From NCBI GenBank assembly GCA_963921795.1, contig OY997641.1, positions 24,210,033 to 24,274,032 of the forward strand: DNA of 64,000 nt. Reading direction: 5' to 3'. Source of the DNA: Nannobrachium achirus (taxonomy: Eukaryota; Chordata; Actinopteri; Myctophiformes; Myctophidae). Of the stretch, positions 5,619 to 62,239 are shown piece by piece. The stretch's first letter is position 1. Each line of letters begins with the position of its first letter. A program made the position numbers and the translations under genes. The notes under the pieces are model-generated. The model was not told the DNA's origin, ran no database searches, and saw only the letters and a program-made list of their open reading frames with translations.

Positions 5619-6453
5619 CAGGGGCGTCACTAGGGGGGGGGGAACTGGGACTGAGTTACTAGGGCCCAAGGTGAAGGGCCTTAATTACTTTATACTTTAG
5701 CTATTGAAAAATAGCAGATAAACAAGCTCACAGCACGGCACCGAGTGCCGCGCTGTGAGCTTGTAGATCTGCTATTTTTTTAAACTTGTGATAATGTGTG
5801 CAAATCTTTCAATATATGTATTTTTTAAGCGAACATTTGTAACTCAGATTTTGCTTCTGGGGGGTCCCTGGAACTAAATATTTTGAGATCTGGTTCCGTG
5901 GCCAAATACATATAATTTTGGGCGTCCTTCACATGAAAAGGTTTGAGCACCACTGACATAGAAACATAGGTTTTTCAAAAAACCTTAGAAGGATTTGAAA
6001 TATTCAAAGAAATTTTCAAGATTTTTCAAAAATAGCAGATCTACAAGCTTGCAGCGCGGCACTCAGTGCTGCGCTGAGAGCTATTTTTGGAGCGGTGAAA
6101 GCGCTCCCAATAGACAGGTATGTCTGTGGCTGGCTGGCTGGCTGGCTGGCTGGCTGGCTGGCTATGTGGCTGGCTGGGTATGTCTGTAGCCTGGCAATAC
6201 CTTGTGTGGCCACACAAGTTAAAGGAGGGGCGCTGTTGTGCAGGCAGGCAGGCAGGCAGGCAGGCACACACACACACACACACACACACACACACACACA
6301 CACACACACACACACACACACACACACACACACACACACACACACTCACCGCTCCACTTCGAACCGAGGTTTGATTTTTCAATAGCTAAAGCACTAAATG
6401 TGAGTGAACTGAATCCTTGTACCCAGGGCCCAGAATTTGGTGCAACACCCCTG
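5619..6453. mobile_element. hAT MITE, CAGGGGYGTC family, with two hairpin modules
   Basis: The ends are CAGGGGCGTCACT and AACACCCCTG, flanked by a perfect 8-bp target duplication ATAAAAGC at 5611-5618 and 6454-6461, which indicates the hAT superfamily. The internal text is shared with copies at 33330-33899 and 61869-62239. It contains two palindromic hairpin modules (5707-5779 and a truncated one at 6026-6088), a TGGC repeat and a (CA)n tract at 6264-6345. It is longer than its relatives because of these microsatellite expansions. Confidence 0.88.
5707..5779. repeat. Hairpin module copy
   Basis: AAAATAGCAGATAAACAAGC pairs with GCTTGTAGATCTGCTATTTT. The inner stem is GCACGGCACCGAGTGCCGCG-type. 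It is inside the MITE at 5619-6453. Confidence 0.88.
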
Positions 6454-9329
6454 ATAAAAGCCACAACCTGTCACACATCAGTTACAGTGTGTGGGCTCGA
6501 CGTCTATCTGGATCACTGCGTTCAGAGGATTAGTGCACTTGTCTGTGCTCTTTTATAGGATCGATTCTGAATGACATTTCCATGATGATAGATTTTCTTT
6601 ATTCTAGGGTCATTTATTCCTTGTCCATGTATTAGGGGTTGCCTGTCTCTATCTTTATAATGAACATGATTTTTATATTAATATTACTTTATCACCTCTT
6701 GACATGCTTCAAGGTGAGAGGGACTCTTCGACCGTGTTACTATATGGCCAAAACCTGACCAGGATAATCAATAATAGATGTTATTACATGAAGCTTTGGC
6801 CCTGTTGGCCTCGTTATTGCTGCAAGACCTTGTATGATCATTCCTGGGTATGGGAACCATTCATGGGTTCATGAATAATTTGATGGCTCTGAGAAGGAAT
6901 CAACAAAACTCTGTTAGGATGAGGTCACTCAGCATGGCATAAGTCATGCCTCCCATGTCCTGTGAATACAGCATGTGAGCTCACTGAAAAACAATACTCT
7001 GTCAATCATATCAGTCAGATGCCTAAAATGAGTGAATTGACTGTAGTGAATAATGGAAAGCTATATGGCAGTTGTTAGACAGAAAAAAGTTGAAAAATGG
7101 ATTCTCTCTGCAAATAAGGGCTTCTCATTTCCAGCCATCAAAACCAGTGTGTAAGAGATCCGTATCTAGTCAAGTGTGCATTCATGCAGAAATTTGAGTG
7201 CAATTTTGAAGAGGAGGCTGTCACTCATAATTCCTGATTTCCTTTACTGTGCCTTTTTTTCTTCTTTTTGCTTTAGAAACGGAGGCAGTAAATCCCTTGC
7301 ACTGCGAGCTGTTTATGGATGGCTGGGTAACACTTTGCTCTGTACGCATGCAGCCTACAGTACAAATGGTCATCTAATTGGAATTTGTTCATAAAATCGA
7401 TTGTGCAGTGGCACTTCCGAGATGGCGGCGTTAAAGGAGATTAGCTGTTGTTAAATGGGCCCTTTATTAACCAGCAGATGAGGAATGACACATAGGCAGC
7501 TCCACATTAGCACATAGATAGTATCAGCCCTCGCTGCAATACTGTCAGCATGCTGGACTCCCGCCTGCCTGCGAAAAACGCATTAGCCAACGTGTCCCAA
7601 GGGAATGGCTGATGAACGGTTGATTGCAAACATATATAAAGCACAGTTCTGAAATTGTGCTGTGTGTGTAGGAACTGAGTTAGCTCCCGGTAATGGTGAT
7701 TTATGAGCGCAGCGTGTGAGAGAAATGTTATTGAGAAGAAATATGTGTTCTTCTACCCACATGTATGCCTGGAGGCTGTGTGTCCAATGCAGCAGCTACA
7801 ATAGAGAGAGCATCTCCACAACTTGGCAGGCACTCTGAGTCCATCTCCTTCAAGCTGCCGATCTTGGCAAAATCCATAAACACGTTCTCTTGCCAATGAT
7901 TGTTTGCGCATACAGTTGTAAATAGTTTTACAACTGTAAAGGTGTTTATCCAGCTTTGATTTATTCAGACAGAGGGCGGGTGCTTTGGAGACCAGTTGAA
8001 TTGAAGACGCAAGCAGTGACTGAGGTGACGGTACATGAATGAGGGAGAATGTAATGTATGGGTTTGTGGCTATAAAGGAAGGTCATTTGGAGATATGTCT
8101 GCAGTACGCTTTTGAGATAGTGTTCCATGACAACCTCCATTCATAAGCCCTTTGTGCACTCACTGCAGAGTACTTAAGTGTCCTCTCCTGACCCCTTATG
8201 CACGCACACACGTCACGCGCGCCTTTATACACACACTCTTGGAGGAGTAGGTAGGTCACCGGCACAGACAGATCGATTTTGCCCTAATCAGGGATGTTTT
8301 CCCTTGATTAAGCACTAGGTTCTGAATTGGTTTCTTATGTGTGTTTCTCTCGCCTTTCTTTTTTTCTGATAAAGGTGACTTTCTCTCAGACAGTGACAAA
8401 TGAACTATGACTGTGAGGGGGAGTCTGCACAATGCAGTTTCTAAAAGCCTAATGCGATTGATGAGGGAACACAGAGAGCTGGTGCTTTATTTCACTCAAA
8501 GTACTCCAACATTTTTTGTTACTATTGTTGGCTGCTACCAATGGTTCAGTCCACAAAGGCCTTCCAAGGGTAATACTATCACTATCTCTTTCTCTTTCTC
8601 TGTGTGTGTGTGTGTGTGTGTGTGTGCGTGTGCGTGTGCGCGCGCGCGCGTGCGTGCGTGCGTGCGCGTGATCTCTTTGCCAAGATCCTAACTACATAAA
8701 ACTTTGCTTGCAGGGACAAACAGTAGAACTTTGTTGTATTTGTTTAACATCAAATGGCTATATGACACAGCACACCTGTCCCTCTCTTCCCTACAACACC
8801 TTGGGTGCACCTCACCATCACTACATAAAAGCAATACCGTGTTCTGAAGCTTGACACTCATGCACTGTAGCAGTGCCATGTTGACCTTGGTGTGTAGAGC
8901 TACTGGCTGCTTTAATCGACAATGTGGTCACCAGCAGCAGTTAATACTCAATCACATAACTTACAGTATAAATATATATTTTTTCAACTGCAAGGACAGT
9001 TGGCAATGCATTTTTTGTTGTTGAATGTTTTGTATGGAATCCATATACTGTATATACATAACATATAGGTTACATACAGACAGACATAAACGTACACTGT
9101 TAGCAGAACCGATGTCATTTGTCACCAGAACCATCTGAACAGGGGGCATGGAAGAAATCACATCCACAGATGGCATCACACACCGTATGTAAAACAAGTG
9201 ATGGAATAAAAGACCTCCTAGTGTCACCTCTGGTAAAACCTCGGCCTTGAGTGGAGCAAATGAAACTCATGGTGTAAAGAGTGCTGGGAGTCCAATGAGA
9301 TGACTTAAGCTTTCTGTTCGGCTCTGACC

Positions 9330-9528
9330 TTAGGAGATACTGTAAGAGCAGTGAGTTTGATCTCCGGCTTCTCGTGCTGCTGTGTTGAAGTGTCCTTGTG
9401 CAAGACACTGAGCGCCTAACTGTTCCCCAGGTGCCGCTATTGGCTGCCCACTGCTCATAATGTAATAGTGCTCAAATGTAGGGGACACATTTCCCCACAG
9501 GGATCAATAAAAGTCTAAAAAAATAAAT
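9330..9528 (+). mobile_element. SINE-like repeat
   Basis: It contains a domain common in fish SINEs (GTGCAAGACACTGAGC, CTAACTGTTCCCC, CTGCCCACTGCTC) and ends TTCCCCACAGGGATCAATAA followed by an A-rich tail. The 5' boundary is uncertain. The family name is not assigned. Confidence 0.6.
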
Positions 9529-9960
9529 GTACTAGCAGCAGAACACATTTACAATTTTTCCCCGCAAATTTAGAGTAATTGGAGCCAGCGGAGAAGGCAG
9601 CGGCAATATAAACGTCCTACTCATTTGTCCCTTTCCTGTTTGTGTCGAGTGCTGGCACCCTGTGAGTCATTACTTTAGCAATGAAGGTCAAGAAATAAGA
9701 GACACTAGAATGTTGATGTTCTAGAGGTACAGTAAACTGAAATGTAAACGGAGAGACAGAGCTGGTGGTTTCAAATGTACTGTAACCTTGTGCAGTTTAT
9801 ATATTTCATATTTTAAAGGCGGCAAAGTTCAGATTCAAAACGAGGATTCGTTTCTTTCACACGTTTCTACTAGAAAGACAGGGCTGATGGTTTTCAGATG
9901 CAACCTGTTATAGTTTTGTCATATTTTTAAACATTTTCTATGGGATCATTTTCCCATTCG

Positions 9961-60937: not shown

Positions 60938-61052
60938 AACACACACACACACACACACACACACACACACACACACACACACACACACACACACACACAC
61001 ACACACACACACACACACACACACACACACACACACACACACACACACACAC
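60938..61052. repeat. (AC)n microsatellite
   Basis: About 57 units. Confidence 0.98.
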
Positions 61053-61868
61053 GGAGGAGGAGAGGAGCACACACCTCTTGTTAAAACAGAAGCAGCAGGA
61101 GTAGACATTTCTCAGTGAATCGATCATTTTCCTCAGCTCCACAGCTCTTCCCTCCAAACCTCCTTATACCCTGGCCTGGCCCTGGCACAGTTCTGCCCGA
61201 AAGCCTGCATTGATTCTCATCACTGTCAGTCCAAGGTGAGCCGATTGGCCGATACTTATCAACTGTCAGTGGTTGAAAAGGCAGATATTTTAATTTCCTC
61301 CCCTGCAGCCGAGCCTGCTCAGAGATGCAGGCCATTGATAAATCAGATTGTAACCATTGATCCCCCCTACCCCTCTCTCTCTCTCACTCTCTCACACTTG
61401 CACACACACACGCACACACTCGCGCAAACACACAGTCTGGTATCCAGACTATGTGATGACCATATAATAGCATTCCCTTCTCACCATAAAAAAACGCTAT
61501 AAGACTCCACTCTGCGTTTCTGTACTTGAGTATTATCTGGTGTGACATCAAGATAAAACAATTTATTAGGCCCTTGCCTTGATGCTGACAGAACAATATG
61601 GCCTCTTCCCTGTTGATAAGTTGCCTCCACAGCGTCAAGAGAGGCTTAATTGTAGCATTTCCAAGTCAAATGAGGCAGAGTCCCTCAGGGAGAGAAATGG
61701 TTAGTTGGTTTGTAGCACCTTTTGTTGTGAAAGGCAATGAGATTCATGTGTTTGGGAGAGCAGCATCCATGGGGCTGCCTCGATCACAGCCTGGCTCGCT
61801 CTTCCACTTTGTATCACTTGATCTGCACCCAGTACAAAAACAGGGTGGGGGGTTGGTGGTTCCTGCAG

Positions 61869-62239
61869 CAAGGGGTGTCACAAGGGGGGGAAAGTGGGAC
61901 TGAGTTACTAGGGCCCACGTTGGAGGGGTCTGGAATTATTTTATACTTTAGCTATTGAAAAATATCAGATATACAAGCTATATACAAGATACACAAGCTT
62001 GTAGATCTGATATTTTTGAAAAGTCGTGAAAGTGTGTGAAAATCTTTGAATATATATATTTTTTAGCACTCGGTGCCGTGCTGTGAGCTTGTATATCTGC
62101 TATTATTCAATAGTTAAAGCACAAAATAATGTGTTCCCAGTCTAAATGGGTTAAACCCCCTCCCCCTATGAAGAACATTCATGCGGGGCCCGCAGAGAAT
62201 CCTTGTACCCAGGGCCCAGAATTTGGTGCGACACCCCTG
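61869..62239. mobile_element. CAGGGGTGTC-family MITE, shortened
   Basis: It begins CAAGGGGTGTCACAAGG and ends GCGACACCCCTG, with the family's AGGGCCCA and TTTAGCTATTGAAAAAT text. Both hairpin modules are damaged (61957-62021 and a right half at 62069-62108). TTCCTGCAGCA is repeated on both sides, but on the right it lies ~8 bases from the element end. Confidence 0.75.

Follow-up and report, generated by a model that had tools for sequence, protein, structure and literature searches.

Why should one short palindrome recur inside small transposons whose ends differ? In the 64-kb stretch of DNA analysed here (the window), about 30 copies of such a hairpin had been claimed by an earlier note, and 31 of the 32 places that it listed match the hairpin. 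The remaining one, 33240, is a remnant at a family C junction from which the hairpin has been mostly deleted.

A hairpin abundant in the window and across the genome

Using the arm AGATCTACAAGCTCACAACG with up to three mismatches, we found 37 matches in the window and none in each of 100 dinucleotide shuffles. A blastn search with the palindromic consensus typed in gave 31 merged copies, the weakest with a best E of 0.06. These copies overlap or lie next to 31 of the 32 positions and miss only the remnant. When searched more strictly with a profile (nhmmer, E ≤ 1e-3), the window yielded 26 copies, and at this threshold no match was obtained in reversed or in dinucleotide-shuffled sequence. The sequence AAAATATTTT has no exact occurrence in the window and 24 within one mismatch. 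Rfam at gathering score returned no match in the window, and hence no known RNA family.

Hairpins in the window (strand in brackets, given as. throughout; matched by blastn except where stated):
5706..5779 (.) hairpin, family A
6028..6082 (.) hairpin, family A, truncated
10995..11064 (.) hairpin, singleton H
11305..11378 (.) hairpin, family A
11621..11689 (.) hairpin, family A
11934..11977 (.) decayed hairpin, family A; blastn matched 11949-11977
12234..12307 (.) hairpin, family A
12894..12927 (.) half hairpin, family B
13450..13509 (.) hairpin, family B
15428..15500 (.) hairpin, family C
17692..17745 (.) decayed hairpin I, one flank A-like; blastn matched 17724-17745
18964..19001 (.) half hairpin, family C
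25791..25861 (.) hairpin G, one flank F-like
26339..26411 (.) hairpin, family C
31528..31561 (.) half hairpin, family E
33240..33262 (.) hairpin remnant, family C, mostly deleted; no blastn match
33417..33490 (.) hairpin, family A
33701..33759 (.) hairpin, family A, apex deleted
34636..34714 (.) hairpin, family B
36955..37027 (.) hairpin, family D
37697..37767 (.) hairpin, family F (host with 4-bp target duplication)
38211..38276 (.) hairpin, family D
39021..39070 (.) hairpin, family E, apex deleted
40916..40967 (.) hairpin, family B, one arm cut off
49370..49395 (.) half hairpin J
55818..55879 (.) diverged hairpin K; blastn E 0.06, profile search E 3e-06
57553..57587 (.) half hairpin, family E
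58479..58525 (.) decayed hairpin, family F; no profile-search call
58942..59012 (.) hairpin, family L
59772..59824 (.) hairpin, family D, apex deleted
61957..62017 (.) rearranged hairpin, family A
62082..62108 (.) half hairpin, family A

As 30 sampled 10-kb stretches contained 87 copies, or 2.9 per 10 kb versus 4.1 in the window, the density of the hairpin is not peculiar to this locus. The corresponding assembly-wide estimate is roughly 480,000 copies (bootstrap 310,000-680,000), which may be an overestimate, the stretches being biased toward contig starts. The genome-wide total is probably several hundred thousand, inside many different small elements.

Bounds and pairing of the hairpin

The hairpin is a near-palindrome, most often of 71 bp (AAAATAGC...GCTATTTT), with 34-nt arms and a loop of about 3 nt; 26 of the 49 matches with E < 1e-12 are exactly 71 bp long. 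Its ends are sharply bounded. Over 60 flank groups, the final T of TATTTT carries ~1.4 bits of information, the next three positions 0.36, 0.25 and 0.02 bits, and those beyond at most 0.20 bits. In most flank groups TA lies inside the arms (AAAA-TA-core-TA-TTTT), as a Made1-like TA duplication would, but outside it the T run is equally present. Between families of the window, hairpin arms have a likeness of 0.847 (0.832 with K included) compared with 0.856 for flanks within families, the flank measure being a lenient one that gives unrelated flanks 0.749. Between families C and D, 27 and 28 of 28 core-arm letters are retained on the two sides, while one of their flanks has no similarity.

Hairpin variants track the host family: over positions 1-27 of 37 copies, mean distance was 0.084 within and 0.152 between families, a separation reached in 0 of 2000 permutations. 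The arms also covary, 13 of 34 pairs being altered on both sides versus 4.7 (sd 1.4) in shuffles and at most 6 in slid controls. Since left arms paired with right arms of other copies from the same family gave 29.4 matched changes against 30 observed, this covariation is confined to differences between families and stems from few events. One A/G mismatch turns up repeatedly, in 28 of 66 copies that belong to 10 of 19 families or contexts.

Two insertion types among the hosts

The hairpin lies about 70 to 210 bp inside the end of its host. The hosts fall into six or more multi-copy MITE families, plus many singletons. Some singletons may belong to known families without being recognised as such, which leaves the number of acquisitions uncertain.

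Host elements in the window (strand as above):
5619..6453 (.) family A, ends CAGGGGCGTC/CAGGGGTGTT, target duplication ATAAAAGC; end repeats match 9/14
33330..33889 (.) family A, target duplication AAGACGAC/AAGATGAC; adjoins a broken C element
13197..13633 (.) family B, CAGTGGTTCTCAAC, target duplication CTGTACAG
34515..34961 (.) family B, target duplication TTCTATAT
15198..15610 (.) family C, CAGGGGTCTTCAAC, target duplication TGTTACGT/TGTTACTT
26193..26660 (.) family C, target duplication CTGTACAA/CTTTACAA
36730..37131 (.) family D, TAGGGATGGGACGATA, target duplication 6/8
37996..38433 (.) family D, target duplication CTCCTCAT
31338..31737 (.) family E, ends CAGTGGTG; no clear 8-bp target duplication
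37587..37851 (.) family F including its duplication ATAT, ends CGTCACTGTCGGG
58375..58603 (.) family F including its duplication ATAT
54997..56091 (.) host of hairpin K, TAGGGCTGTGAAAA, target duplication GTGAGCAG; nested in 54888-56395
58873..59236 (.) family L, CARTGGTTCCCAAA, target duplication CTTTATAG/TTTTATAG

Most identified hosts are hAT-like, with 8-bp target duplications. The consensus of hAT-type terminal inverted repeats begins YA, and the A, B, C, D, L and K hosts combine hAT-type ends with an 8-bp duplication, some with 1 or 2 mismatches. Candidate hAT-like elements enclose 21 of 113 hairpins (17 elements, of which L024 and L029 look spurious), compared with 3.0 percent of 3000 random positions.

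The host ends named in the earlier note were found in the window, with one correction: the end read there as 'ATATCGTCACTG' is a 4-bp target duplication followed by the end CGTCACTG, and its host is therefore not hAT-like. This is family F, in which the hairpin is present outside hAT hosts. Exact 4-bp duplications (ATAT, ATTT, ACAT, AAAT, TAAT) were read by eye in 10 of 12 elements, three of the 12 sharing the same flanking repeat, and together with the ends of this family they rule out a hAT-type assignment. Duplications of 4 bp in F and 8 bp in the others imply different transposases. A piggyBac-type TTAA duplication, as in the coral CMITEs discussed below, was also ruled out, the duplications found being 8 bp or ATAT-like.

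Flank relationships, nested loci and hairpin-free elements

Of the 1728 flank pairs compared between families, 13 exceeded the 99.9 percent level of the shuffles, where 1.7 were expected; the relationships are strong for A/I, F/G and C/D and weak for E/J, A/J, A/L and D/E. Each of the three strong pairs has one flank in common and the other not, and E31521/E39021, a doubtful case, showed the same in a further test of flank sharing. The flanks next to the hairpin of singleton H match no other hairpin flank in the window. Nothing was found between the flanks of family B and those of C and D. Flank similarity in some comparisons joins C, D, L014:2949, L017:2600 and L030:7687 (z of 3.9 to 8.9 in the better pairs, 0.6 to 3.0 in others and -0.3 for the second C/D flank), despite ends that differ between C and D and are different again in the candidate element around L014:2949.

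Nesting was seen by eye at single loci: an F element inside a hAT-like element (L023:2729-3090), an F element without one end (L031:1951-2339) and a B element without one end (L023:9093-9576). Other elements carry no hairpin at all. At L019:5144-5555 lies one whose ends are C-type and whose 8-bp duplication is perfect, and about ten of 56 hAT-like candidates were judged by eye to be plausible elements free of the hairpin, which indicates that the hairpin is dispensable for movement. A relative of G and F at about 16760-16975 also lacks it. Among matches to 14 flank profiles that reach the junction, 108 have the hairpin and 21 have no called one; the profiles were built on hairpin-bearing copies and favour such matches, and several of the 21 are decayed or rearranged hairpins. 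No clean empty host site was found among these matches.

Origin and possible role of the hairpin

Three readings had been offered in the earlier note: a shared functional hairpin, a tiny fold-back mobile unit and a recombination hot spot. The conserved sequence, typical length and covarying arms fit the first best, and our leading explanation, held tentatively, is an old inherited cassette that has moved between MITE families by nesting or chimerism and has been kept as an aid to its carriers' multiplication. Each family would have gained the hairpin long ago, probably once, and the hairpin would then have been inherited and amplified along with that family's own ends. Transfer between families could occur when one hairpin-bearing MITE lands in another or when halves join, the surrounding DNA being lost later; nested composites may in this way have founded new families. 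Selection would act through source copies, which would retain the sequence, length and pairing of the hairpin because it helps the host element multiply. We infer this function; its likeliest routes would be a dyad bound by a protein that several elements use, or extrusion of the DNA hairpin, which would draw cutting or repair to it during replication. Counting against such a role, neither a transposase nor a binding protein or small RNA came to light, and a Pfam scan of 10 of the 40 listed open reading frames in the window gave no transposase. That the hairpin, bound or extruded, raises the copy gain of any small-transposon carrier across superfamilies is possible but rather unlikely. If so, it would have colonised tens of MITE families with at least two insertion types, and would be among the genome's most abundant sequences through selection on transposons, not on the fish.

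Sharp ends and many unrelated contexts would also suit a hairpin that is itself mobile, inserting in the middle of short palindromes, mostly within MITEs, without direct target duplication. The flanks are inverted-symmetric in a context-specific manner (mean run 2.26 versus 0.62, sd 0.20, when permuted, 0 of 5000; runs of at least 4 in 7 of 27 contexts versus 1.4 percent), as a palindromic target would give, but a cruder first test on window copies gave no symmetry (0.83 versus 0.79). Flush direct repeats of at least 2 letters, seen in 4 of 27 contexts versus 24 percent by chance, are not in excess. Since variants segregate with host family and the junction matches, even allowing for profile bias, run mostly with the hairpin, we consider this mobility unlikely. 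The hot-spot reading has some support from the family pairs with one flank alike. It would make the hairpin a neutral passenger, a by-product or recombination spot at which polymerase template switching copies arm onto arm and joins the flanks of different elements. Rearranged hairpins (e.g. L025:8683-8744) and frequently matched arm changes are in keeping with this, but continual arm copying would erase the A/G mismatch, likeness is no higher between the arms of one copy (0.874) than between hairpins from different copies of a family (0.895), and arm copying alone leaves the likeness between families unexplained; we therefore regard it as quite improbable. Equally improbable, in our judgement, is one ancestral hairpin-bearing element for all hosts, its ends and flanks since diverged or replaced. 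The shared mismatch points to a common ancestor of the hairpins of B, C, D (one of three copies), E and F, and descent of the hosts themselves may extend at most to C, D and the three loci with similar flanks. Beyond these, A, B, E and F have no strong flank similarity to each other or to C in the window, a few weaker pairs passing, and the two duplication lengths speak against a single source.

The inherited-cassette explanation bears on why a few non-autonomous elements reach huge numbers. A module in elements with different ends, its sequence and pairing kept amid changing surroundings, would amount to a natural experiment pointing at an internal cis-element governing transposon success, and it suggests nesting as a way for parts to pass between transposon families.

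Relation to known systems

Bacterial REP elements are likewise small, abundant palindromes, although bacterial and likened here by description only. The same holds for the palindromic elements of Rickettsia. Two BED domains of the Hermes hAT transposase are described as cooperatively binding a quasi-palindromic pair of sites inside the transposon end (PMC10368747). These sites, also likened by description only, are short motifs, mostly at the tips with some further in, unlike a 71-bp hairpin that lies about 70 to 210 bp from the host end and also occurs in a non-hAT-like host. Made1, a near-perfect palindrome of 80 bp with 37-bp arms and a 6-bp loop (PMC1784062), is very similar in shape and size. 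It is itself a transposon, its arms being the terminal repeats of an Hsmar1 derivative, whereas our hairpin lies inside other elements and shows no demonstrable target duplication; the lack of flush duplications speaks against a stand-alone MITE of this kind.

The closest precedent for a shared hairpin module may be the CMITEs of Acropora (PMC2872659), several MITE families with different terminal repeats and a common internal region of ~75 bases that is better conserved than the ends. Its authors suggested a role in transposition and left the origin open. Here too an internal region is conserved between families with different ends. The CMITE passages on that region describe no palindrome, whereas ours is a hairpin with 34-nt arms, in mostly larger hosts that insert in two ways. 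CMITEs measure about 100 bp and have TTAA duplications. About 1600 copies were estimated in A. millepora, compared with an estimated several hundred thousand for the hairpin.

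Abundance of the hairpin in the window and the assembly

Using a typed consensus, we found 31 copies in the window of a near-palindrome, typically 71 bp long, with arms AAAATAGCAGATCTACAAGCTCACAACG...; arm matches numbered 37 in the window and none in shuffled sequence. The earlier note had placed about 30 copies of this hairpin at 32 positions, and each of these indeed bears a hairpin or a remnant, position 33240 holding a remnant rather than a full hairpin. A hairpin profile was made from 15 window copies and remade from 39 strong matches. At E ≤ 1e-3 it recovered 26 copies in the window and 87 in 30 stretches of 10 kb sampled from the same assembly, at least one of which was present in 25/30 stretches, while reversed and dinucleotide-shuffled control sequence gave 0 matches.

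Hairpins made up 1.7 percent of bases in the sampled stretches, at a density of 2.90 per 10 kb (bootstrap 1.87-4.10). Scaled to the assembly (1,658,514,493 bases, 564 contigs), this corresponds to ~481,000 copies (310,000-680,000), an estimate that may be too high, the true number perhaps being lower because the first 20 stretches held 70 copies and the other ten held 17. The first 20 stretches were drawn by script, with the contig number altered by hand in five of them, and none lies further than ~20 Mb from the start of its contig; the other ten were chosen from lists ahead of inspection. Together the 30 stretches fall on contigs numbered 1 to 19, with 4 and 16 unrepresented, and 22/30 are in the first ~20 Mb. 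Loci L001-L005, which are matches from a prokaryote collection, were excluded from every count.

The hairpin is carried by at least two insertion types

The window copies were sorted by their flanks into host families A, B, C, D, E and F plus singletons, and host terminal sequences include CAGTGGTTCTCAAC, CAGGGGTCTTCAAC, TAGGGATGGGACGATA and CGTCACTGTCGGG. Hairpins of families A, B, C, D and L and hairpin K are surrounded by terminal repeats and 8-bp duplications; family E has hAT-like ends, with a clear duplication absent. Across 364 kb, 21/113 hairpins lie inside 17 hAT-like candidates, versus 3.0 percent of random places, a comparison in which at least two of the candidates (at loci L024 and L029) look spurious and decayed hosts escape the test. 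In family F an exact 4-bp duplication (ATAT, ATTT, ACAT, AAAT or TAAT), read by eye, sits outside the ends CGTC...GACG in 10/12 elements, three of the twelve sharing one flanking repeat and so not being independent. Since both 8-bp and 4-bp types carry the hairpin, the same hairpin occurs in at least two insertion types and very probably in two transposon superfamilies. The F elements embedded in the same flanking repeat are L013:1367-1632, L018:4575-4821 and L018:7636-7899 (locus:position in the sampled stretches), where a larger repeat probably carried the F element along.

The hairpin has sharp boundaries and conserved pairing

Grouping 172 anchored hairpin sides by flank gave 60 groups, some of them perhaps diverged branches of a single old family. 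With one representative per group, letters stay conserved as far as the final T of GCTATTTT, beyond which the information drops to 0.36, 0.25 and 0.02 bits; the anchor favours the conserved part of the hairpin, and the drop outside is independent of it. Length was exactly 71 in 26/49 matches with E<1e-12, and 27 copies of 71 nt had a mean fold energy of -49.6 kcal/mol (-17.9 to -61.8), compared with -16.7 for shuffles.

Eleven of these 27 copies were picked to span families (A, B, C twice, D, E twice, F, L, L011:552 and L021:1437, the last two sharing one flank group with F). In this alignment 89.8 percent of cells were paired, and both sides had changed in 13/34 pairs (shuffles 4.7, sd 1.4, 0/500; slid structures ≤6). 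Among 46 copies there were 78 matched changes, versus 34.0 (sd 5.6) when arms were shuffled between copies (0/1000). As shuffling arms within families abolished the excess, the matched changes are old events, modest in number, that became fixed in source elements. Position 9 opposite 63 was unpaired in 7/11 copies, and the anchored sides revealed a 9/63 A/G mismatch in 28/66 copies from 10/19 families or contexts, including B, C, E, F and, in 1/3 copies, D; the pair was intact in 18/18 family A copies. We read this mismatch as one asymmetric hairpin inherited by the families bearing it, and as evidence against continual copying between arms. Arm-by-arm correction after insertion was also considered and is unsupported by arm comparisons.

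Probable inheritance, and possible past mobility and passage between hosts

If the hairpin were itself a mobile unit, it could carry direct repeats at its ends. Flush direct repeats showed no excess (at least 2 letters in 4/27 contexts, chance 24 percent), nor did an earlier scan of window copies (mean 4.5 vs 4.1). Hairpin variants track host family, with a distance of 0.084 within and 0.152 between families (positions 1-27, 37 copies; 0/2000 permutations), and present mobility is therefore unlikely, since hopping between hosts would blur that pattern; mobility in the past is possible. The first letters outside the hairpin mirror each other in a context-specific manner (mean run 2.26 vs 0.62, 0/5000 permutations), as with TGGTGAA to either side of the copy at L014:2949, CACAAT in B and CACTA in F; family A flanks are nearly free of mirroring (0.76). 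Either palindromes are where the hairpin inserts, or its arms lengthen and change in step with the flank. A first symmetry test on window copies had shown no effect (0.83 vs 0.79), which we put down to crude T-run trimming and decayed copies, the anchored test with more copies being positive. Flank matches reached the junction in 108 cases with a hairpin and 21 without a called one, several of the latter being decayed or rearranged hairpins; the flank profiles derive from hairpin-bearing copies and so are biased toward hairpin presence.

The pairs A/I, F/G and C/D are alike on one flank, and the likeness stops across the hairpin: for C and D, one flank matches at 64/76 aligned letters (20 gaps, z 8.9) and the other does not, while 27/28 and 28/28 core letters agree. 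Between-family flank pairs exceeded the 99.9 percent shuffle level in 13/1728 cases (1.7 expected), these three pairs being among them, with weak passes for E/J, A/J, A/L and D/E, and the copies at L014:2949, L017:2600 and L030:7687 show weaker likeness to one another and to C or D in some comparisons. In the window, core-arm identity between families is 0.847 without K and 0.832 with K, and flank identity within families is 0.856, on a measure that ignores gaps and on which unrelated flanks reach 0.749. As between-family arms are about as alike as within-family flanks, we infer that much of the hairpin difference is decay of dead copies. Copy 39021 was considered as a one-flank match to E, which is doubtful, its right flank resembling an E subfamily by eye. 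At L025:8683-8744 a family C hairpin has become a short tandem array in which the arms are truncated, the pattern expected when a palindrome rearranges.

An inherited hairpin could pass between families through capture by nesting followed by erosion, which would leave a series such as the following. At L023:2729-3090 an F element, bearing half a hairpin and flanked by an ATAT duplication of its own, sits inside a hAT-like element whose 8-bp duplication has one mismatch. Perfect duplications flank an F element with one end lost (L031:1951-2339; 8 bp) and a B element with one end lost (L023:9093-9576), the losses being judged by eye. Each case is a single locus, and nested composites as transposing units are a proposal. 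The window also holds a hAT-like nested pair with perfect duplications at 54888-56395, of inner (54997-56091, GTGAGCAG) and outer (GGCATGCC) elements; only a diverged hairpin core is visible in the inner.

Hairpin-free elements and possible function

The element at L019:5144-5555 has family C ends (61/74 and 66/79 letters like C at 26193), a perfect 8-bp duplication and a different interior, without the hairpin, and the hairpin is thus dispensable for movement. Further hairpin-free candidates with duplications occur among the hAT-like candidates of the 364 kb, and a G/F relative at ~16760-16975 lacks the hairpin. L023:6480-6848, once taken as hairpin-free, contains a shortened hairpin and is a second copy of family L. 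A short hAT-like element without a called hairpin lies at 62900-63304 (TAGGGGTGGG, duplication CTTATTTG).

A helper role in amplification fits the sequence and pairing conserved in source copies. A protein might bind the hairpin as a dyad, comparable to the Hermes quasi-palindrome bound by BED domains (PMC10368747), or an extruded hairpin might act on replication or repair. Its presence in a family with 4-bp duplications argues for a host protein or structure, rather than one hAT transposase, as the agent.

Precedents and database searches

The nearest precedents are coral CMITEs for a common interior with different ends (PMC2872659) and Made1 for hairpin shape (PMC1784062). A literature search, with subscription journals and repeat libraries outside its reach, led to the CMITE, Made1 and Hermes papers and, among the entries listed, to no description recognisable as this hairpin, and 'palindrom' and 'hairpin' are absent from the main text of the zebrafish EnSpm-N6 paper; individual host families may well already be catalogued in repeat libraries. 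Exact matches were absent for two patterns in viral contigs and for one 601-base stretch in phages, and Rfam gave nothing at gathering score. Five pattern matches in the prokaryote collection genome_contigs were taken as chance, being below the ~7 expected for that pattern by arithmetic under even base use.

Other features of the window

Four further features were recorded:
34982-35386, plus strand: exon-like ORF near a family B element, matching Pfam glycosyltransferase family 18 (E 1.4e-08, residues 20-77)
9961-10170: long fold-back with 10 nt between its two 100-nt arms, which are 97 percent complementary, and with no hairpin match
41645-41726: a further palindrome, its 39-nt arms separated by 4 nt and 95 percent complementary
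28758-30358: 1585-bp element, ends CGGGGCCGGATCTAGG/CAGGGCCGGATCTAGC, duplication CTATCCCA

The ORF is presumably an exon of an MGAT5-type gene; a PDB sequence search with it gave no match. This ORF and the repeats, which are of a kind typical of teleosts, point to a fish. Many sites across the window carry simple repeats such as long (CA)n/(GT)n tracts, as the ORF translations revealed.
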